From assembly GCA_963422465.1 (NCBI GenBank), contig OY730172.1, forward strand, positions 124,001-188,000: DNA of 64,000 nucleotides, given 5' to 3'. This DNA comes from Lichina pygmaea (taxonomy: Eukaryota; Ascomycota; Lichinomycetes; Lichinales; Lichinaceae). A program made the translations under genes and the position numbers. Below the pieces are notes generated by a model. That model ran no database searches. It was not told the origin of the DNA and saw nothing but the letters and a program-made list of their open reading frames with translations. Shown here piece after piece: positions 1,860 to 55,545 of this stretch. The first letter of the stretch is position 1, and the number at the start of each line of letters is the position of its first letter.

Positions 1860-2470
1860 TACGTATGTACGAGTCCGTACAGTACTTTCTGACGTCGTCT
1901 GCTACCAGTAGCGATACAGTATCACGACAAAAGTCTGTGTACTTCCGTACGTCCCGATATGTTGATTTTCGCAATGGGCATAAGTAATGCGACAAGATCA
2001 ACAGGTCTCCGCGATACTGGAGTCGCATTACTAACAGCCAGATAGACGCGGCCGAACTTGATTTTGTATGGGACGGTATATTGACTTGTGTCGTGCCACT
2101 GTATGCCCGGCCTCCTAGAGAACAGAGGGAACAAGTTCGAGCCGGCGCCGAGTGGAATCGAGCCACTTCAATACGCCTGTCAGGAGGCCTCCAAGGGCCC
2201 TTGTGAAGACGTACCTTTCTTGGGCCACCCTACGTACTGTACATACCTTGGCAGCCCTTGAAGGTGTGGCTCGGCAGTACGGTGCCTACCCAGCAGCCTA
2301 CGGAGTAGATCCCTCCGATAAATACGCCTGAAAAGCATCTCAACTGTAGCAGAACGCCTACTAGGAGCACAGCGGAAGCATCTCTAATTACGACCTCGTG
2401 ACTGGATCCAGATCTACGTACTCGTAATACGTACATACGTACCTACGGTATGTAACTACCAACTACCGTA
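1860..2470. other. Intergenic, no gene recognised
   Basis: No conserved protein seen on either strand. Dense GTAC motifs (for example 1861-1895 and 2410-2450). It lies between two TA-flanked transposons. Confidence 0.55.
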
Positions 2471-3206
2471 CCCGATCACATGACGGTCGATATCAGATAA
2501 CGAGCAGTTAAGGGGCCCCCTTGATAAAATTTTGTATAAGTCCACTATCCTTGGTTGGAATCATCTCAAGTTTTTATATTGGGTAGAGAATCATATAGAG
2601 AAGAGATATCGAGCAATAGAGCTCTAGTATACAAAGCGTGATTGCTTTCTCAGGACTCAATCATGCTAATTAGTTCTGGGGCCTCCTAATCTTCCCACCT
2701 GTCATCTACATCATCAACATCAGAAGAAGACTGTTTTGACTGGTGAATGAGTCTTTCTTGCAGTTGTTACAGTCTTCTGATCTTTTTCCTCCCTCTCTGC
2801 CTACTTCTACAAGGTGCTGTGTTCTGCACTTGAAACAAGACTTCCCAACAATACGCTCTGCAAGATCCTAGACAGTCTGGGGAGTCATAGACTATTCCTG
2901 GATGCTAAGGGTACCAACACACTCCACTAGCTTTACTTCCTGGGGTCTTCTGCTGATGTCAATGATGAAGATGACCGGTGGGAAGACAAGGAGGTCGCAA
3001 GGACTAAGTAATAAAGTTGAGTTCTGAGAAAGCAGTCCCACTTTGTATACTAGAGCTCTATTGCTTGATATCTCTTCTCTATATGATTCTCTACCCAATA
3101 TAAAAATTTGAGATGATTCCAACCAAGGATAGTGGACTTATACAAAATTTTATCAAGGGGGCCCCTCAACTGCTCGCTATCTGATATCAACTGTCATGTG
3201 ATCAGG
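2471..3206. mobile_element. Foldback pogo-type element A built from two inverted 3' ends
   Basis: The element begins CCCGATCACATGAC after TA (2469-2470) and ends GTCATGTGATCAGG before TA (3207-3208). Its two arms (roughly 2471-2735 and 2955-3206) are inverted copies of each other over about 250 bp. Each arm resembles the 3' end of the Fot/pogo element at 45871-48007: the non-coding tail with its ATATGATTCTCTACCC-like stretch and, further in, the last codons of the transposase (a GEDEGWEDDEV-like acidic segment, here near 2955-3005 on the plus strand and mirrored near 2690-2735). There is no 5' half and no DDE domain, so it is non-autonomous. It comes from a relative of element G rather than from G itself, because the match is clear but divergent. 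Confidence 0.85.
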
Positions 3207-4040
3207 TATGGTACTTCCGTACAGTACGTGTGAACTATGAGCCCGTAGGTCACGGGACCACGACTTGATGAACACTACAGTCCGGAACACTCTCTATCCA
3301 GAGAGGTGTCTACCCGTGCCGAGGAGGTACTCTCGTACCACCCACTCTCTTCGCAAGCTTCAGTCAGGACACCTTTACTTCGTAAAGGTGTCTATCACCG
3401 GGATGTGACATATCACTGGGACATGATGTTTTTGTCATGATCAAGTCCACAATCTTCAAACCACCATAACTTCTCTACATCATAGCCAAATTATCCACTG
3501 AGACTGGGACTTGAATCCAGAATACTATAGATAGCATCCTGACACATGAGAAGTTCACAGTCTGAAAACTGGCTGAAGAATTCAACATCTCCTGACATCA
3601 ACTCCAAAACCACCTTGATGGCACCCCCTCTTGCCACAACATCATTCCTGTCAACAGGAAGCTCTCTATCACTGAAGAGCTTGCTGTCTGTTGGTACATT
3701 GATAGACTCAACAAACTAGGAATATGTGCAAGACTACCAATACTTCACAACACTGCCAATGTGATTCTTTCTCAGGGCTATACTGGAGATACCTGTTGCG
3801 GTCCGTACCGTACCGTCCTATCCGAGTATAGGATTAGGGCGAGATGCGGAAGGCAGGTTGGTTCTCGCAGGAGAGGAGTGTCAAGGAGCGTGAAGGGGTT
3901 TGGTGGAACGTGGTGGTGATGACACCTGATCAGTGGCTTCGTACAAGATTGTATTGAAGTAGATCTAGTTGTCTGGATCACAACATGAGTTGAAGACGAT
4001 CGTTCCATAAGGGAACTATCGCCGGACTATATAGTGCTCA

Positions 4041-4279
4041 GTCCGTGAGCTCAGTGAGCTCTGCTCACTTTGCTCACTTGTTCATGCATGCTGCAGCGAG
4101 CTGGGTGAGCTCTGCTCACTTTGCTCACTTGTTCATGCATGCTGCAGCGAGCTGGGTGAGCTCTGCTCACTTTGCTCACTGTTCATGCATGCTGCGGCGA
4201 GCTGGGCGAGCTCTGCTCACTTTGCTCACTGTTCATGCATGCTGCGGTGAGCTGGGCGAGCTCTGCTCACTTTGCTCAC
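4041..4279 (+). repeat. Tandem array 1 in the solo LTR
   Basis: Four to five imperfect units of about 60 bp. Each has a GTGAGCTCTGCTCAC self-complementary core followed by TTCATGCATGCTGC. Confidence 0.85.
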
Positions 4280-4525
4280 TGTTGCGGTCTGTACCGTGCT
4301 GTCCTAACCGAGTATAGGATTAAGGGCGAGATGCGGAAGGCGGGTTGGTTCTCGCAGGAGAGGAGTGTCAAGGAGCGCGAAGGGGTTTGGTGGAACATGG
4401 TGGTGGTGACACCTGATCAATGGCTTCGTACAAAAGGATTGTATTGAAGTAGATCTAGTTGTCTGGATCACAACATGAGTTGAAGACGATCGTTCCATAA
4501 GGGAACTATCGCCAGACTATATAGT

Positions 4526-4770
4526 GCTGGCCTGTCGAGACGATCGAGATTGTCTCGACAGTCTCGACGTCAAGACGGGTGAGATTGTCTCGACGGTCCC
4601 ACCATGTTATGCACCCTGCGTCGAGACTGGTGAGATTGTCTCGATGCTTCATGCACGCTGCGTCGAGACTGGTGAGGCTGTCTCGATGCTTCCTGCATCC
4701 TGCATCGAGACTGGTGAGATTGTCTCGATGCTTCATGCATGCTGCGTCGAGCCGCCTGTGTGTGTCTCGA
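4526..4770 (+). repeat. Tandem array 2 in the solo LTR
   Basis: Four to five imperfect units of about 60 bp. Each has a GTCGAGAC...GTCTCGA self-complementary core followed by TTCATGCATGCTGC, the same spacer as in array 1. The core differs from array 1 but the unit design is the same. Confidence 0.85.
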
Positions 4771-6477
4771 CAGTCACGTGACCCCTTGTTGGTTGGTCAC
4801 TTGACTTCCATGGTGTCCTCTTGCCTGGCCCGCGGCCTGATTGCCTATAAATGAGTGGCTCCCATCCCAGGGGTCGTAACACTCACGCATATGCGTGCTG
4901 CGGCGAGCAACCCCTGGTCGGTCTCGCCGGTCACGTGACTGCTTCCCGTGTTATGCTGCCTGGTACTTCCGTCCAGTATCCTGTTCTGCTGCTTTCTGTG
5001 AGTATAAAGACTGTGTTCCTCCTGGGTCGTAACAATACCCCCCCCACCTACCATTGGTGCTCTATGGGTCTATAGGTTTCTGGAACGTCACCCAGAATAC
5101 TCTTTCTGGAAGCAGAAGGTAGCAAAGCAAGCTGCTATAGCTGTGGCGAAGGAAGAGTGTGCTCAGGCAAAGAAAGCAGAGCAGGTAGCCAAGCAGGCAG
5201 CCAAGCAGGCAGCAAAGGCCATGGTGGCAGAAGAGTGTGCTTGGGCAAAGGAAGCCAAAGTGGCGTGAGGCAAAGCCATGATGGCAGGTGTTGCAATTGC
5301 AACCATGATCCACCAACACCACAATGCTCCGAACAACATGACAAGCTACTATCCGATAGATGAAGTGGTCTAGAATCAGATGGGCAAATAATAATTACTA
5401 TTTGGTCATTGTTCTACAAAGTTATAGGTGTTTGAAGTGTTTGTTGTCAATGGTCTGTTTTTGATCTAGCAGCTGTGGTAGTTTCTCAGCAACGCTATAA
5501 AAATCAGTAGACTTCTAAAATCTCAAGTATTATACTACAGAAGTAGGGGATTCAGATAAGCCGCTTACTTTTTGATTTAGTCATGGTGTTGCGGAGTTAT
5601 AGGACTGCGGACTCGATCATGACAAAAACATCGCGTCCCGGTGATACGTCGTGTCCCGGTGATAGACACCTTTACGAAGTAAAGGTGTCCCGACCGAAGC
5701 TTGCGAAGAGAGTGGCACGAGTGGGTGGTACGAGAGTACCTCCTCGGCACGGGTAACACCGGAATGAAAGTATCAGCAGTATGAAAGGTTTTCTTGATAG
5801 AATCAACTGCAATGCCTATAATTCCACAACACAATGACTACATGAAAATGTAACTGGCCCATTTGATTCCTCTACTTCTACACTATCGTTTCTGAGGTTG
5901 CAGGCCTTTTTACAAGCCACGAAAGTAATATATCTACAAAACAAGGAAGAGTGACCAAAAGATCGCATGTCTGAGAGAAGCGAAGCGGACGACTCAAGTT
6001 TCTATGGTAGCTAACGTGGCTATGGTAGCTACAGTAGTTACTCAACAATACCAGCAGAATCTGGGAGAGCCTGAAGCATCAGGGATGATAGTAGAAGAGT
6101 AGGGGAATCAGATAGGTACATAAAAATTATCACTTGTCTATCTAGTTGTGGAGTTGTAGGTGTTTCAAATTGATGTTGTCAAGAGCCTGTTCTGTGAGTG
6201 ACGACTATCATGACTTCTCAACAACACCACAAAAATCTAGAGAAGTCTATATCCTCAAGGATGATAGTAGAGAAGTAGGAGAATCAAATGAGCCGGTTAC
6301 ATTTCAATTCAGTCGTTGTGTTGTGAAGTTATAGATGTTGCAGCTGACTTGCAACCGAAAACCTTTCATACCGCTGATACTTTCATTCCGGTGTTAGACA
6401 CCTCCTCTGGATGGAGAGGTGTTCCGGACATACCGAAGGTGTGGGAGGAGGGGGTGTAGCCCCCCGTGGCACGGGTA

Positions 6478-25739: not shown

Positions 25740-25972
25740 GGGGTTATCATTGCTATTCTTATATACAAGCTATAATTCAATCTAGCAATCAAACTCCACC
25801 ATTCCCACTCCAACATCTAGTGATTTTTCTTCCCCAGACACTACAAGATTCCTTATGTTTACATTTCCTGGTCACTCCCCCCCCCCCCCGTCTTCAGTTT
25901 TTATTTCCTTCAAAAGATTTTTCTGAAGATTTTTCACTATCGGCTAGATTATCTGCATCGCTGTAAAGCTAC
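25740..25972 (+). repeat. Dispersed repeat, copy 1 (interrupted by element D)
   Basis: About 230 bp alignable with 51500-51717 (shared CACTACAAGATT, GTCACTCCC, GTCTTCAGT and AGATCTGCATGGCTG-like blocks in the same order). The similarity continues for a few bases beyond element D at 28462. The nature of the repeat is unknown, and both copies are non-coding. Confidence 0.7.
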
Positions 25973-25974
25973 TA

Positions 25975-26147
25975 CCCGTGCCTTGGAGGTACTTCGTACC
26001 TCCCCTCCCCTCGCTAGCTCGGTCGGGACACCCTTACTCCGTAAGGGTGTCCGACAGTGCAACGGTGTGGACAGTGCAACGGTCCCCACACAAAATTGAA
26101 GTAAATTGGCATCGGCCACCTTCAAATCACCATAACTTCTCAACAAC
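25975..26147 (+). repeat. Left terminal inverted repeat of element D with two hairpins and paired direct repeats
   Basis: Hairpin 1 at 25985-26003, hairpin 2 at 26026-26052 (12 bp stem, 3-base loop), direct repeats at 26053-26066 and 26070-26083. It ends at the transposase start codon. In pogo and related IR/DR elements, internal repeats of this sort are transposase binding sites; that role is inferred here. Confidence 0.85.
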
Positions 26148-28095
26148 ATGCCCAAATCGTACGCTGAAGTTGAGGATCGGATCCAGGAAGCTCTTGGATC
26201 AATTCTTCCTGACACGGAAGTTTCAATTCCAGAATTAGCTGCTAGATTCAACATTCCTGCGCGACGCCTCGAAAATTGCTTAAAGGGAACTCCGTCTCGA
26301 AATACCCAGGTTCCAGCCAGCAGGAAGCTCTCTCCAGCTGAGGAAGTTGCTGTCTGTCGTTATATTGACAGACTTGATCAGCTAGGATTATGTGTTAGAC
26401 CACCAATGTTACGTAACTGTGCCAATGTCATTCTAGCCCGGAACCACGACGGCAATAGTCCCCCACCTACTGTCAGCTCTCGATGGTCTCAGAGATTCCT
26501 GGATCGCCATCCTGAGTACTCTGTACGCAAACAGAAAGCAACAGACCCAAGACGAAAAGTTGTGAACAATGCTGAGTCAATAGAAGCATGGTTCAAGGAT
26601 TTCCATGCCATGTACCTGGAAAAGAGGATCCAGTCTGGTGATTGCTGGAACATGGACAAGTCTGGATTCCAGATAGGTCTGGGAAGGAACCAGAAGATCA
26701 TCACCAAGGACATTTGTCGCCAATCCTATATTGGAAGTTCCAGTAATCGTGAGCTAGTTACGGTTGTTGAGGCTATCAGTGGTGGAGGAAAAGTAATCCC
26801 CCCACAGGTGAGTAGATGATAAGCAATCCAAAAATACTCAATAGATAGTAATGAAATTGTCTATATCTAGGTTATCTTATCAGGAAAAATCCATCAGGAG
26901 TGGTGGTACACTCGTACAAGCCTTGAAGACAACGCCCTTGTCTCTGTGTCGGAAAGTGGTTTCTCAAATGATCAGCTCAGCTATGAGTGGATCAAGCACT
27001 TTGAGGAACACAATGCCAAGTCCCAGACTGGTGCTTATCGACTTGTGTTGCTTGATGGCTACGGGTCCCACTGCATGTATGAGTTCCTGGACCACTGTGA
27101 GAAGAACAAGATTGTACTGTTCTGTCTCCTACCTCATGCCACCCATCTTCTCCAGCCTCTGGACGTTGTTTTTTTCCAGCCCTATAAGCATTGGCATGCT
27201 GAGGCTGTTGACACTGCTGCTTGTACAGGGTGTGGACTTCAACAAGCTGGAATTCCTCGAAGCTCTAGGATCAATTCACCAGAAAGCATTGAAGCCATCA
27301 ACTATTCTTTCTGCGTTCAGGGAGACTGGTCTTATCCCATACAGGTCTAAGAAGGTGGTTGACAGACTACGAGAAAAAAAGGAGGAAAGACAAAAAGATA
27401 CAGAACTTCGACGGCCGGCCACCCCTCCTGTACAGCCACAGGCTATCAAGCCAATGTTCACAACACCTCTCACGATTCAAACATTCAAACAGCGGCTTAG
27501 CAATTACATAGACCCAGAAACACCAGCGTACCCCGAGGACTTACGCAAAATTGCCAAAGCGACTATTACCTGGGCGACAGAGAACATCATTCTCAAAGAT
27601 GAACTGAGGTATACAAAGGCAGCAGAAGTTGCTTGAAGCACGCGCCAGAGGCCAAGCCGGCGACAAGTTCAGAACAGGGGCTCTATTAGCTCTGGTGCAG
27701 CCCGGGTGGTGGCGGAAAAACAACGAATTGAGGAGGAAAAGTGCGTGGAACATGCTCGAATACGTGACGCAAAGAAGGCTGAAAAAGCAGTAGTGGCAAA
27801 AGCAAAGGAGGAAGCAAAGGCAGTGAAAGATGCAGAGAAAGCAGCAGCAGCTAAAGTGAAAGAGGACGCAAAGATAGCAAAGGAGATGGCAAAGGAAGCA
27901 AAGAAAGTAATAATGGCAGGGCATGGTGGGGCAGTAGTGGGGCATGGTGGGGCAACGTTTGTGGAGCTGGCGACAGAACAGCAAGCAACAGTGGAGCCAG
28001 TGATGGTGGTGCCAGCAATCTCCCCAGGCTCTCAACAACGCCACGAATTCCCAGAGGAGGTGACACCTTGGGTACTGATAGAACATCTGATCTAG
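26148..28095 (+). pseudogene. Fot/pogo transposase of element D, one frameshift and one stop
   Basis: The frame opens MPKSYAEVEDRIQ. It has a helix-turn-helix and CENP-B-like region (residues about 20-135, with RWSQRFLDRHPEYS), then the first catalytic Asp in CWNMDKSGFQ. A probable intron follows (GTGAGT after 26807, ending TATATCTAG at 26870). The second motif is VLLDGYGSH and the third LQPLDVVFFQPYKHWH, so the DDD triad is present. Near 27230 the frame shifts by one base and continues as VDFNKLEFLEALGSI with the typical pogo AFRETGLIPY motif. A TGA at 27634-27636 then precedes the Ala/Lys/Glu-rich tail, which stays in that frame to 28095. Recently active in appearance but not coding for a full protein. 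Confidence 0.9.
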
Positions 28096-28309
28096 AATCA
28101 GATAGGCTCATAAAATCTACAGTTTTATCGCTTTGTTGTAAAGTTATTAACCTTGTAAACTTGATCTGTCAAGGATCTGTTATTCGGGTTGTAACTACGA
28201 TAGTTTCTCAGCTTTGCTATAAAATTCACAAGAGCTCTAAAACTTCAGAGATTGTACTTGAGAGGTAGAGGAATCTAATGAGCAAATCAGATTTTAATTT
28301 AGTCATTGC

Positions 28310-28461
28310 GTTGTGAAGTTATAGAACTGCGAAGCTGATTTTGTGGAATGTGACCGTTGCACTGTCCACACCGTTGCACTGTCGGACACCCTTACGGAGT
28401 AAGGGTGTCCCGACCGAGCTAGTGAGGGGAGGGGAGGTACGAAGTACCTCCAAGGCACGGG
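28310..28461 (-). repeat. Right terminal inverted repeat of element D
   Basis: Mirror of the left end: direct repeats near 28360-28383, hairpin 2 at about 28384-28411, hairpin 1 at about 28434-28451, tip GGCACGGG. Confidence 0.85.
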
Positions 28462-28463
28462 TA

Positions 28464-29304
28464 GCAGTGTAAAAAAAATCAAATAACATCAAGATATGCA
28501 AGCCCATGTCGTGTCTATTGTTCCAACAAAAGTCCAATCATGACCCTGCCTCCACTTTTTCACGGACTACTGTGTACTAGAGAGCTTTGGCTCGCTGGCC
28601 GGCACTGACTTGTCTCACTGCATGGTGTTTCTCCCCTGCTCGGTCCCTGACGGCTGGTGTTGTGCTCTGGATGCAATCGCGGCGCCTCATGCTTTGCGGT
28701 CGGAGGCGCTGCACGATAGGTAGACGGTGCCATAGGCGGCACTATTGGTGGTGCCATAGGTGATACCGTGGATGATACCATAGGTGGGTGGTGCTACAAG
28801 GAAGTACTGTGGTAGATATCCAAGCTTTCTTACTCTGTGGATGGACTACCACAAGGGAGAGGAAGAGGAAGAAAAAGGAGGAGAAGAAGGAGAAGAAGGA
28901 GAAAGAAAGGAAGATGCAAGAATGAGGAGGAAGAAGATGGACAGGCAAACGGCCATCTTTCCTCTCCACGACAAGACACCAAACAAAGCAGACGGTGTGT
29001 GTGTGTACACGCGCGCGAGAAAGAGACTGATCACCGCCACTCGACATCTCTTACAATCACACACACATGAAAGTGGCATCGTCAATGGCAGAAGAGACTG
29101 AACAGGCAGAAAGTAGAATCAACAAACCCCATCCTGCCCCCCCCCCCCCCTTGAATACTGAAATACTCACAGATACATATCCTTGTTGGGTTCAAGTGAA
29201 TGATGATGAAAAGTTGGAAAGATTTGTGTGCGTGTGAGTGGGTAGTTGGTGGATTTGGGAAGGAAGGGAGGGAGAGAGAGGGAGAGAGGGAGAGAGAGAA
29301 AGAC
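28464..29304. other. Low-complexity intergenic region
   Basis: Purine-rich GAGGAAGA-type stretch at 28855-28945, a short GT/GC alternating run near 28995-29015, a C-run at 29140-29150 and GA repeats at 29265-29300. No gene recognised; the right part is the 3' flank of the DUF1772 gene. Confidence 0.6.
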
Positions 29305-31350: not shown

Positions 31351-31975
31351 CCCGTGCCGTGGGGGGGGGGGGGGGGGTATTCCCCCCCTCCTCCCGTCCC
31401 TTCGGTACGTCCGGGACACCCCTCCACCAGGAGGGGTGTCGGACAGTTCAATGACCTGGACAGTTCAATAATCGCTAGTAAATCTGTTGATAGTCACCAA
31501 TTTTAAACCACTACGACTCCACCACAACATGGCCAAATCTTACAAGGAAGCTGAGGCTCGCATCACAGAAGGGGTGGATTCCATCTCTGACTGTAAAAAT
31601 GCTATCACCATACCAAAGTTAGGCAGGGAATTTGATGTCCCAGTACGTAACGTACAGCGACTTTAAGAGTAGAAAAAGCTCACTATTGTGAAAGAAGTGA
31701 GCTCTCTCATGAGAGGATTGAGAAGGACTACTACGTAGGCAAGTCAGACTACAATAGCTACTCAGCAACACCAGCAAAACCAGGGAGAGTCTACAGTTTA
31801 AGGATAGCACTATAAGAGTAGGGGAATCAGATGGACACATAAAAATTACTACTTGTCTATCTAGTTGTGGAATTATAGACATTGCAATTGATCCTGACAA
31901 GAAAGCGATCATTGAACTGTCCGACACCCCTCCTGGCGAAGGGGTGTCCCGGACGTACCGAAGGGACGGGAGGGG
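31351..31975 (+). mobile_element. Pogo-type element E, internally deleted
   Basis: Starts CCCGTGCC after TA (31349-31350). The right end stops short: it carries the matching hairpin (about 31922-31950) but lacks the last ~35 bp of the inverted repeat. It has the same plan as B, C and D: a first hairpin (G7-TATT-C7, 31371-31388), a second hairpin (GACACCCCTCC with a 4-base loop, 31415-31440) and two direct repeats GGACAGTTCAAT at 31441 and 31458. Only the first 45 codons of a transposase remain (31529-31666). Confidence 0.88.
31529..31666 (+). pseudogene. Truncated pogo transposase start of element E
   Basis: Opens MAKSYKEAEARI, like MPKSYAEVEDRI of element D, and runs through IPKLGREFDVPVRNVQRL, the helix-turn-helix region. 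It ends at a TAA at the deletion point; all of the catalytic domain is missing. Confidence 0.85.
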
Positions 31976-45870: not shown

Positions 45871-48007
45871 GCCGATCACATGACGGTCGATATCACATAA
45901 CGAGCGATAATGTAAAAATTGACCAACATCTTCAATCACCATGGAAAAGCCGTACAACGACCGAATGAGTGAGGCGCTTGCTGAACTAGATCAGGCGGAC
46001 CGAGTCAACTATTCTGAGACTGCGTTGAAGCATAATGTCAGCCGCCAGGCTCTTTCACGACGTCACAAAGGGGAAAGCACCTCCCGAGCAAAAGCAACCT
46101 CGAACCTTCGACAAGCTCTTACCGGGGCTCAGGAAACTATGCTTGTAGAGCGGATCAGTACTCTAAGTGTCCAGGGACTGCCTACAACTCCCCAAGTCGT
46201 ACGAGATCTCGCAGAACGTATCGCTGAAAAGCCTCTTGGAGAGTGCTGGACACGACGCTTTGTTCAACGTCATTCTGAGGTACTTGAAAGTATCTACCTT
46301 AAGCCAATAGACAAGCAACGTAAATGGGCTGAGTCTGTGTCTTATATTGAGGCTTTCTACAAGCTGGTATTGGTTTTTCTAGTCTCACTTACGAATAACT
46401 ACTAACTTTAACCTAGTTGCGTGAGACCATCGAGAAATATCACATCACGGCGGAAAACATCTACAATGTTGATGAGAAAGGCTTCCTCATTGGTCAAGGA
46501 CATGCCTCCAGACGGATTTTCAACAAAAAAGCTCGGAAAGCTGGCAAGATACTCGGTGCCAACCAGGATGGGAGTCGGGAGTTTGTCACTCTTGTTGCTT
46601 GTATTCGAGCAACTGGAACATACATCCCCCCACTTCTCATCTACCAAGGACAGTCGTACGACCTTCTAGACACTTGGGTTGATGATCTGAATGGAGCAGA
46701 GGCATATTTTGCTGTCTCTGAGAAAGGGTGGACGAACAATGACCTAGGTCTTCAATGGCTAGAGAAGGTCTTCAATAAATGTACTAAAGCAAAGGTAGGA
46801 CGCAGCCGTCGTCGTCTTATTGTTGATGGTCATTCCAGTCATGTCAATCTTGCTTTCCTAGAATATGCTGATGCCAATGGTATTATTGTTCTTGTTTTCC
46901 CTCCTCATACTACGCATCGTTTGCAGCCTCTTGATGTTGGTCTTTTCTCTCCCTTGGCCAAGCAGTATTCCCATGAACTTGATCTTGTGATGCGTAATAG
47001 TCTGGGGATTACGTCAATTACCAAGCAAATCTTCTGGTCTCTTTTCTATTCTGCTTGGAAAAAAAGCTTCACAGTTAAGAACATTCTGTCAGCTTTTGAG
47101 ACTACCGGTATCTTTCCTATCAATTCTTCTAAGGTTCTCAATACTCTAAACCCCCCCCCCCCCCCCCCCCCCCCCCAGACACCGCACAGACCTGCCCCTA
47201 CCCAAGCTAAAACTCCTGTAACATTCATTTCTTTTCGTTACGCTATTCGGATGCAGAAAAAGGACCCTTCTGCGGAACGTCTTGAGAAGATTGAGGCAGG
47301 CTTTGCAAAGGTGATTGCAGAGCGAAATCTGGAGAAAGTAGCTGTTGGTCAGCTCAAAACAGCTCTCAGGGTGGAGAAGAAGAAGAAACAACGAGGAAAG
47401 CGACTTAATTTGCTCGGAGAGGAGGATGTTGGACCACAAGTCTTCACCCCGACTGCAATCCAAGTTGCTCAAGCTAGAAAAGCTGCCAAAGAGGAGGAAG
47501 AGGAGCAAAAGAAAGAAGAGAAGGAGAAGAAGAAAGAAGAGGCAGTACAGCAACGCCTGAAAAAGCAGTCAGAGAAGGAAGAACGACAGACAGCACGAGA
47601 AACTGCCCGCCAACAAGCACGAGAAGAGAAGGCAGAAAAGCAAGCAGAAAAGATGGCTAACGAAGAAGCCAAGAAGTGGGCAGAAGAAGAGAAGAAAGTT
47701 CAGCAAGCTGCAAGGAGTGCTAAAACCCCTTCCCAAACAACAAAAGAGATGCCTGCCGCTGATGATGGTGAAGATGAGGGGTGGGAGGATGACGAGGTCC
47801 CAAGGACCACTTCACATGGTCGTGTCTTGAGAAAACCATCACGCTTTGTACAATAGATTTCTATCGCTCAATATCTGTTCTCTATATGCTACTCTATCTT
47901 ATACTCAAATCTGAGATGATTCTGACTATTGGTAGTTGAGTAATTCCAAAAATTGTCGTCAGTCGGTCGAGTGCTCGTTATCTGATAACGACCGTCATGT
48001 GATCGGG
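45871..48007 (+). mobile_element. Fot/pogo DNA transposon G, apparently intact
   Basis: 2,137 bp flanked by TA (45869-45870 and 48008-48009). The inverted tips are CCGATCACATGACGGTCG-like, and on the right side an inner CGTTATCTGATAACG palindrome; about 33 bp match between the ends. The only gene is a one-intron transposase with an unbroken frame and all catalytic residues. The tips differ from those of B-E but are the same as those of foldback element A (2471-3206). Ends, target and protein are all in order, so this copy may still be able to move. Confidence 0.93.
45941..47856 (+). CDS. Fot/pogo (DD35D) transposase, intact
   Basis: Two exons, 45941-46366 and 46417-47856, encode 621 residues. 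The 50 bp intron (GTATTG...ACTAACTTTAACCTAG) joins YIEAFYKL to LRETIEKYH. Residues about 20-50 form a Psq-type helix-turn-helix (NVSRQALSRRHKG) and about 65-125 a CENP-B-like DNA-binding domain (WTRRFVQRHSE). The DDE-1 catalytic domain has Asp161 (NVDEKGFLIG), Asp279 (IVDGHSSH) and Asp315 (LQPLDVGLF), i.e. DDD with pogo spacing. AFETTGIFPIN follows, then a polyproline stretch encoded by a run of 26 C (47151-47176), then a long Lys/Glu/Ala coiled tail and an acidic end (DDGEDEGWEDDE). The protein would bind the element's inverted ends, cut and paste it into TA. Confidence 0.93.
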
Positions 48008-54382: not shown

Positions 54383-55545
54383 CCCGTGCCACGGGGGGCT
54401 ACACCCCCTCCTCCCGCACCTCCGGTACGTCCGGAACACCTCTCTATCCAGAGAGGTGTCTTACACCGGAATGAAAGTATCAGCGGTATGAAAGGTTTTT
54501 GATCACTACTTGACTGCAACATCTATAACTTCACAACAGAGCGACCAAATTGAAATGTAAGCAGCTCAATTGATTCTCCTACTTCTCTACTATAATCCCT
54601 GAAGATATAGACTTCTCTAGATTTTTGTGGTGTTGTTGAGAAGCTATGGTAGTTGTCACTCATAGAACACATTCTCGCCAACATCAATTTGAAACAGCTG
54701 CAACTCCACAACTAGATAGACAAGTGATAATTTTTATGTGCCTATCTGATTCCCCTACTCTTCTACTATCATCCCTGATGCTACAGGCTCTCCCAGATTC
54801 TGCTGGTATTGTTGAGTAACTACTGTAGCTACCATAGCCACGTTAGCTACCATAGAAACTTGAGTCGCCCGCTTCGCTTCTCTCAGACATGCGATCTTTT
54901 GGTCACTCTTCCTTGTTTTGTAGATATATTACTTTCATGGCTTGTAAAAAGGCCTGCAACCTTAGAAACGATAGTGTAGAAGTAGAGGAATCAAATGAGC
55001 CTGTTACTTTTTTATGTAGTCATTGGTTATTGGTATTCCTACTCCATTCTAGTGCTAGTTATCTAGACTATGCTGGGTCGGCTATGAAAATTAAGCAAGG
55101 AAAACCCTAGACCTGCTAGGGTGAAAAACCTCCTTCTGCAGTGCCTGGCCAGCACTATCCTGTCGAGATGCTGTAGAACATGGGGGGTGGCTGGCTAGCA
55201 GCCAGCTTCTAGCTGCTCCTGAGCCCAGGAGAACTGGGGGAGAATGCCTTGTCGGAGGATCCACGCTGTGAGGGCGGCGGCGGGCCGTGGTCGGGATGTC
55301 AAAGCCCGGTAGTCAGTGGTGGCAGCTGCTAGATACAGGCTTCGCCGCACTCGGAGAAGGCGTGGGCAGTCTAGATTATGTAGTCATTGTGTTGTGGAAT
55401 TATAGGCATTGCAGTTGATTCTATCAAGAAAACCTTTCATACCGCTGATACTTTCATTCCGGTGTAAGACACCTCTCTGGATAGAGAGGTGTTCCGGACG
55501 TACCGAAGGTGCGGGAGGAGGGGGTGTAGCCCCCCGTGGCACGGG
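54383..55545. mobile_element. Pogo-type non-autonomous element C2 with LINE insert
   Basis: Starts CCCGTGCC after TA (54381-54382) and ends GGCACGGG before TA (55546-55547). First hairpin G5-CTACA-C5 (54394-54408), second hairpin ACACCTCTCT-ATCC-AGAGAGGTGT (54436-54459), direct repeats CGG(A/T)ATGAAAG at 54467 and 54484. No coding sequence. Both arms carry pogo 3' untranslated modules in inverted orientation, as in C1. The body is almost identical to C1 (3280-6475) in reverse, so both derive from one recent family. A 350 bp LINE end sits at 55026-55375. Confidence 0.9.
55026..55375 (-). mobile_element. Tad-like LINE, 5'-truncated, inside C2
   Basis: 350 bp flanked by a 14 bp direct repeat TTATGTAGTCATTG (55012-55025 and 55376-55389). 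On the minus strand it encodes the last ~58 residues of a LINE ORF2 without interruption: LDCPRLLRVRRSLYLAAATT, then LTSRPRPAAALTAWILRQG and PQFSWAQEQLEAGC, stop. A short 3' tail ending near AGAATGGAGTAGGAAT follows. Same family as 6884-7375, but better preserved and therefore younger. Confidence 0.88.

Follow-up and report, generated by a model that had tools for sequence, protein, structure and literature searches.

Why should the ends of transposable elements carry two successive palindromes whose arms differ from lineage to lineage and yet pair? The question is raised by the ends of four elements in the window, the whole 64,000-nucleotide stretch of contig OY730172.1 of Lichina pygmaea that was analysed (positions 124,001 to 188,000). 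The first-pass annotation described these ends as two hairpins and paired direct repeats shared by four pogo lineages, and took the matched changes in the hairpin arms to point to selection for folded DNA or RNA. Here the ends are considered both in the window and in the genome to which it belongs (32.47 Mb, 8 contigs), together with the scars of broken copies.

Anatomy of the element ends

Read inward from its border, an intact terminal inverted repeat (TIR) consists of TA, the tip CCCGTGCC, hairpin 1, a spacer, hairpin 2 (ACACC…GGTGT), and two direct repeats. The hairpins and repeats are parts of the TIR and recur, inverted, at the opposite ends of elements B, C2, and D, each of which has TA at both borders; in the genome searches TA was part of the patterns and is hence imposed on the matches. 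Element D, with degenerate Fot/pogo transposase frames, extends from TA to TA over positions 25973-28463 (plus strand), with tips at 25975 and 28461. Its left end, on the plus strand, comprises the tip (25975-25982), hairpin 1 (25985-26003) and hairpin 2 (26026-26052), both recognized by sequence and folding, and a pair of direct repeats 17 bp apart (26053-26083). At the right end, on the minus strand, lie the repeat pair (28353-28383), hairpin 2 (28384-28410), hairpin 1 (28433-28451), and the tip (28454-28461). The end proper starts at 25973; the coordinates of the first-pass annotation begin at hairpin 1. The two arms, 116 nt including the border (25969-26084 and 28352-28467), are 98% complementary.

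Element B (3311-5755, plus strand) is inserted in the TA directly behind hairpin 2 of C1, a further C copy that ends at 6475 and whose left TIR is split by B between hairpin 2 and the first repeat. The B flanks, GAGGTGTCTA and TAACACCGGA, agree with C sequence on either side of this target TA, and the right hairpin 2 of C1 is at 6397-6423 (minus strand). B has on its left (plus strand) a hairpin 1 with 5-bp arms (3326-3339), a hairpin 2 supported by sequence and folding (3368-3392), and direct repeats 18 bp apart (3393-3422); on its right (minus strand) are hairpin 2 (5665-5689) and hairpin 1 (5727-5740). B also holds internal tandem repeats with units of about 50 and 42 bp, and just left of B/C1, at 2461-3216, lie inverted arms of 217 nt that are 91% complementary and 322 nt apart. 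The left end of C2 (plus strand) carries a hairpin 1 with 5-bp arms (54394-54408), hairpin 2 (54436-54459; sequence and folding), and direct repeats (54461-54494), and its right end (minus strand) hairpin 2 (55469-55492) and hairpin 1 (55520-55534). In E the left end (plus strand) has hairpin 1 (31371-31388), hairpin 2 (31415-31440; sequence and folding), and direct repeats (31441-31469). At the opposite end hairpin 2 (31923-31948, minus strand) has one arm base changed, and outside this stem the tip has been lost together with much of hairpin 1.

When folded as single-stranded DNA, the left ends give z scores of -4.72 (D), -3.90 (B), -4.35 (C2, for which 1 of 200 shuffles was equally stable), and -4.93 (E). 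Hairpin 2 is present in the predicted folds of all four. Hairpin 1 stands out clearly in D and in B, is partial in C2, and is absorbed into a longer G/C pairing in E. The hairpins and repeats of D, B, C2, and E are thus present where the first-pass annotation had located them.

A many-lineage Fot/pogo family

The tip followed by ACACC (TACCCGTGCCN{28,58}ACACC) has 133+130 = 263 matches in the genome, a few ends being counted twice, as opposed to 3+1 for the reversed-pattern control. The pattern TACCCGTGCC has 295+294 matches, against 46+52 for its control. By the next base, the 263 matches divide into 68, 48, 27, and 120; 243 of them were individually listed, and lineage counts rest on those. 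The ends that were read come from 200 tip-bearing stretches, made up of loci across the genome and the window. ACACC is missing from the expected place in 24 and present in 176, of which 130 have GGTGT in reach. The other 46 were excluded from the arm counts, which consequently favour intact hairpins. Ends without GGTGT include breaks, altered outer halves of the stem, small deletions, and expansions, as well as a nested insertion, a lineage that has lost or never had hairpin 1, and a few stretches that are not elements.

In a tree that left hairpin 2 out of account, the lineages D, D2, F, B, C, E, G, H, and I (names coined here) and some rarer types separate, and the lineages so defined carry their own hairpin 2 arms and their own direct repeats. 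One lineage (L049, L092, L096, L116, L192) has no hairpin 1 and bears a hairpin-2-like stem directly behind the tip. The repeat spacing given by the first-pass annotation is borne out by offsets measured in the named lineages: 17 bp in D, C, E, G, H, I, and D2 and 18 bp in B, eight of the nine, F being ambiguous. Its further claim that the repeats are lineage-specific also holds, and they occupy the place expected of transposase sites. By analogy, these paired repeats, some 80 bp inward of the tip, are the probable binding sites of the transposase.

Domain searches covered D- and B-lineage copies. HTH_Tnp_Tc5 is found in D at 26148-26816 (6e-13), and DDE_1 in a D-lineage copy (L066, 4.9e-15) and in a B-lineage copy (L082, 1.1e-6). 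The D frames are broken, and the second one gave no Pfam match. The CENP-B-type HTH_Tnp_Tc5 and the DDE_1 domains bear out the membership in Fot/pogo proposed earlier, and judged from sequence the structures are the long TIRs of a Fot/pogo (Tc1/mariner) family that comprises many lineages. When the DDE part was used as a protein query, 43 matches were returned, with Hirsutella rhossiliensis at ranks 20, 41, and 43; the HTH part had no match among PDB sequences. A separate frame of 479 amino acids at 46417-47853 (DDE_1, 1.8e-23) is a pogo-like transposase outside the elements discussed. Within the B-lineage copy L082, the minus strand holds at 1954-4992 an open stretch of 1012 codons that by eye resembles a LINE reverse transcriptase. 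At L128 (G000:C3:4069101-4069275) an E-like element is apparently inserted in a TA of an F-type hairpin 2, indicating that hairpin 2 itself can act as a target. Four D-lineage copies (L043, L048, L068, L093) have two different spacer types, one per end, a sign of exchange between elements.

Paired repeats of this kind are already known in fungal pogo elements. According to PMC2836289, the TIRs of Trem have two 17-bp direct repeats, as in Aft1 and Tan1, and these elements share with the present ones the TA target, HTH_psq or CENP-B-type and DDE domains, and two 17-bp repeats per TIR. The Trem TIRs are 42-49 bp long, and the word hairpin is absent from the text of that paper. DAHLIAE3 of Verticillium dahliae, a Tc1/mariner element with one full-length copy, has 102-bp TIRs starting with CCCGT, which fits the tip CCCGTGCC and may be compared with the 116-nt D arms (PMC3441728). 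However, its authors describe those TIRs as having no internal direct duplications or palindromes, and the elements here, with both features and many lineages, are set apart by that description and are not filed under DAHLIAE3. No such hairpins are mentioned in the parts of PMC7325037 and PMC4188875 that were available. In the partly available literature searched, to which subscription journals contributed little, no description was found of TIR hairpins of this kind, their covariation, their scars or palindromic footprints, or the tip in pogo/Fot elements. The novelty claimed for the combination is accordingly reduced to the hairpins, the paired repeats having precedents.

Pairing and change in the hairpin 2 arms

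Pairing was scored over the five inner pairs adjoining ACACC/GGTGT, with a null obtained by permuting the right arms (20,000 samples). The comparison asks whether two arms belong together, and it allows for shared descent only in that each type or each distinct sequence is entered once. In 16 types, hand-picked and including single-copy ones, 72 of 80 cells pair when each left arm is set against its own right arm, whereas permuted arms reach 43.1 on average and 62 at most (0/20,000 reach 72). With 60 distinct inner sequences of 12-16 nt, which were not picked, 250 of 300 cells pair, whereas permutation gives 158.8 on average and 195 at most (0/20,000). The four lineages of the first-pass annotation by themselves make a weak case, since 808 of 20,000 permutations do as well. 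Its claim of matched arm changes is therefore strong between lineages when the 16 types or 60 sequences are considered, and weak for the four on which it was based.

Across copies, 572 of 645 cells pair (129 ends), compared to 174 of 650 flanking control cells (130 ends). Lineage F has a fixed stem mismatch and lineage H a bulge. The palindromes might instead be two-fold protein sites, with ACACC and GGTGT as half-sites and the inner stem incidental. This would suit outer halves that are nearly constant around a variable inner part mostly 13-15 nt long (hairpin 2 loops are 3-5 nt). However, part of that constancy is imposed by the search and the filter, and protein sites predict neither inner-arm pairing in most lineages nor the central breaks described below; we consider this explanation distinctly improbable.

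Lineage G offers a view of change within a lineage. Among its 16 ends, the arms are CTCTC/GAGAG in seven and CCCTC/TAGGG, with one mismatch, in six; CCCTC/GACGG, CCCTC/GAGGG, and CTATC/GATAG occur once each. While the flanks are nearly constant, a C-G pair has become T-A in seven ends, and in one more this is accompanied by a change of C-G to A-T. At L088 the CTATC/GATAG and CTCTC/GAGAG stems lie about 800 bp apart and are probably the two ends of one element. A block replacement of both arms was considered for lineage G and dropped, the differences amounting to two single-pair matched changes and one mismatched position with a tied majority.

Within D, B, C, E, and G together, cells departing from the majority make up 32/720 (4.4%) in the arms, 108/1992 (5.4%) in the flanks, and 37/263 in the loops, arm and loop cells being confined to the 72 ends whose inner length is modal and flank cells coming from all 83 ends. 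Arms thus change about as often as flanks within lineages, the outcome that the first-pass annotation had named as telling against its reading, and no pair-by-pair selection is demonstrated. Of the altered pair cells, 20 carry a change in one arm only, 5 have both bases changed and still pair, and 1 has both changed and does not pair. The excess of one-sided changes over matched ones argues that arm-to-arm correction is not continuous. Decay of the stems in individual copies is expected of dead copies whichever reading holds.

Selection on the fold is possible. In its pure form, a folded DNA end would be recognized in transposition, compensating changes would keep the pairs, and the scars would be a by-product. 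The sequences of 11 of the 16 types are paired in all five positions, whereas among the copies 51 of 129 contain one or more unpaired positions, as if only the spreading copies had been filtered. The two matched changes in lineage G, set in nearly constant flanks, favour selection in the same way, as does the persistence of a hairpin-2-like stem in the lineages seen, even in the one that has no hairpin 1. On the other hand, ends without hairpins are under-sampled, since the search pattern included ACACC and an end needed GGTGT to enter the arm count. Loop inversions and centre junctions require DNA events besides point change, and we know of no Tc1/mariner transposase that reads hairpins. Selection acting by itself is in our view a serious possibility that we lean slightly against.

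Of 62 hairpins of the D, B, and E types compared by sequence pattern, 8 have an inverted loop (five of D type including D2, one of B, and two of E), and in L076 and L094 only one end of the element is affected. At L079 the hairpin has grown by equal amounts on both sides of its centre. Such marks record events in DNA at the hairpins, and they allow for arms having been copied or exchanged with no selection at work. The arms may stay matched through selection on ends that still transpose, through arm-to-arm copying, or through exchange of whole hairpins; all three are possible. For the roles in synapsis or in hiding the transposase promoter that the first-pass annotation suggested, the analysis turned up no evidence on either side. 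The same events bear on the alternative that the fold matters in RNA, where the hairpins might, for example, block translation or processing of read-through transcripts. Stable stems do lie upstream of the D transposase frame, whose first ATG is at 26148. However, hairpins are present at both ends, and flipped loops and centre junctions are DNA events, so that a role in RNA seems very improbable indeed.

Scars and junctions at hairpin centres

Head-to-head tips 32-130 bp apart were seen among the TACCCGTGCC matches listed. Twelve such loci were read: ten are 28-58 bp long, one is 63 bp, and L101 is a 119-bp hairpin 2 scar; their 20-base flanks are all different. Genome-wide, there are 40 TA-bounded head-to-head tip pairs of 28-58 bp, and none in the control. 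By eye, most of the 40 consist of TA, tip, hairpin 1, inverted tip, and TA, and three, of 28-32 bp, are without a full hairpin 1. The search required both tips to be intact, and lengths of 59-60 bp fell outside its patterns. Between 61 and 121 bp there are 10 loci, in three of which hairpin 1 contains long G runs and in seven of which the centre of hairpin 2 from one end is joined to hairpin 1 from the other. Of two loci between 121 and 181 bp, one is a hairpin 2 scar joined to spacer and the other spans two separate micro-scars; between 181 and 241 bp the genome has none. A scan of viral contigs with the scar pattern gave matches of 29-36 bp in five contigs (L199-L203), probably unrelated palindromes. 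Five of the 40 short scars are of D or D2 type, and none is of B or C type by hand assignment, although by hand count these types make up about 71 of the 243 listed end matches. The hairpin 1 arms of B and C are only about 5 bp long, and the lack of such scars in them is confounded by lineage age.

The short scars recall nearly precise excision of Tn10, in which internal symmetry makes the ends direct repeats and deletion between them leaves a small terminal palindrome. In both cases the remnants consist of the two ends joined at an internal symmetry, here at 40 loci of 28-58 bp. The differences are that Tn10 is bacterial and that a second class of scar here joins unlike hairpins near their centres. 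Because hairpin 1 is self-complementary, the two ends of an element are also direct repeats, and slippage or annealing that removes the interior can explain the hairpin 1-hairpin 1 scars, the junction of which cannot be placed within the palindrome. Four D-type scars that retain the parental TTC/GAA loop agree with such deletion. The second class is less accommodating. A joint in directly repeated sequence, possible for the first class, is not evident in the E- and I-type scars between hairpins 2 and 1, where the two hairpins differ and annealing or slippage would hardly account for the joint; at L140, L143, L101, and 1465373 no sequence shared by the two hairpins is evident. The two hairpins of D, like those of B, have a short core in common, and there homology may assist the joining. 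As an account of the whole, deletion between direct repeats is somewhat unlikely.

The short palindromes could also be the smallest mobile derivatives of the family, spread by transposition and not scars at all; intact tips and TA borders at 40 loci are what such derivatives would have. However, the palindromes lack the repeats. They match several lineages by eye (D, D2, G, and GC-run types) and differ in their loops, and the eight hairpin 2 scars are unlike one another in sequence. We regard spread by transposition as quite unlikely.

The eight hairpin 2 scars, 89-129 bp long, are the most informative. All break between -1 and +3.5 nt from the centre of hairpin 2: L143 at -1, L150 at -0.5, L064 at +0.5, L140 at +2, L040 at +2.5, and L044 at +3.5, with 1465373 and 628622 placed by eye at 0 and +2. 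Hairpin 2 played no part in the search pattern. If breaks were uniform over 60, 85, or 110 nt, such clustering would have P = 1e-7, 6e-9, or 8e-10, respectively, for an 8-nt interval chosen post hoc. In six of the eight the second break lies within the loop of hairpin 1; L040 has it at the base of that hairpin, and L044 in the spacer. Truncated solo ends behave similarly: L062, L138, L185, and L196 depart from the TIR near the centre of hairpin 2 onto other sequence (for L062 and L138 if one inserted base is assumed), and L142 departs at +2 into tip-like letters. Departures elsewhere are seen at L042 (-4), L166 (-6.5), L048 (+10.5), and L052 (+28). This mapping covered ends without GGTGT, the 130 with GGTGT lying outside it; one of the latter, L154, passes through hairpin 2 into an inverted end, resembling a hairpin 2-hairpin 2 scar. 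These results suggest that hairpin centres are junction points, which is a stronger new result than selection on the fold.

Scars and centre junctions together point to a structure formed in DNA. In the reading we favour, the palindromes between tip and repeats would fold once the ends are exposed as single strands, which would most likely happen as the excision gap is repaired or else as a broken end is resected. The folded end would be cut or lost at the hairpin centre and joined to whatever is present, each side halting at hairpin 1 in most cases and at hairpin 2 in a few. The self-complementarity of hairpin 1 would also let the two ends of the element anneal together, and dead copies would decay freely afterwards. 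The marks in the sequence that support this reading are the scars and truncations at hairpin 2 centres, the tip-hairpin 1-tip remnants, the inverted loops, and the palindrome lengthened from its centre. In the abortive gap repair model for the origin of internally deleted Tc1/mariner copies, the likeness lies in incomplete copying from two ends after excision. Centre junctions are the expected product of cutting hairpin loops, and in yeast MRX/Sae2 is reported to attack hairpins with loops of less than 9 nt (PMC8053094), to be compared with the 3-5 nt of the hairpin 2 loops here. Structure-specific breaks at small-loop hairpins are common to both systems; the yeast work differs in its engineered loci and its much longer palindromes, and arms of only 5-11 bp count against folding here. 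So do the off-centre departures of L042, L166, L048, and L052, the second breaks of L040 and L044 outside the hairpin 1 loop, arm decay within lineages that nearly equals flank decay, the F mismatch, and the H bulge. On this evidence, that the hairpins form in DNA in vivo and guide where broken copies are cut and rejoined is a proposition on which we are evenly divided. An extension of it, offered tentatively and in our estimate unlikely, makes the hairpins an exit device: copying in post-excision repair would fold and close at hairpin 1 or 2, failed copies would shrink to palindromes some 43 bp long, and ends would go on spreading only if their hairpins were sound, driving the paired evolution of the arms.

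What is new here is the tip-hairpin 1-tip remnants, the scars at hairpin 2 centres, and the role this suggests for hairpin centres as junction points. Hairpin formation by short palindromes is hard to observe in vivo, and one genome here offers natural records of it: about 50 hairpin-bounded scars (40 + 10 + 1), of which eight are joined at the centre of a hairpin, beside the 263 end-motif matches. If the reading is true, the origin of short deletion derivatives would be explained, and these elements would provide a natural assay of hairpin breakage in fungi. Matched arm changes in DNA palindromes would then not necessarily be a sign of selection on RNA.
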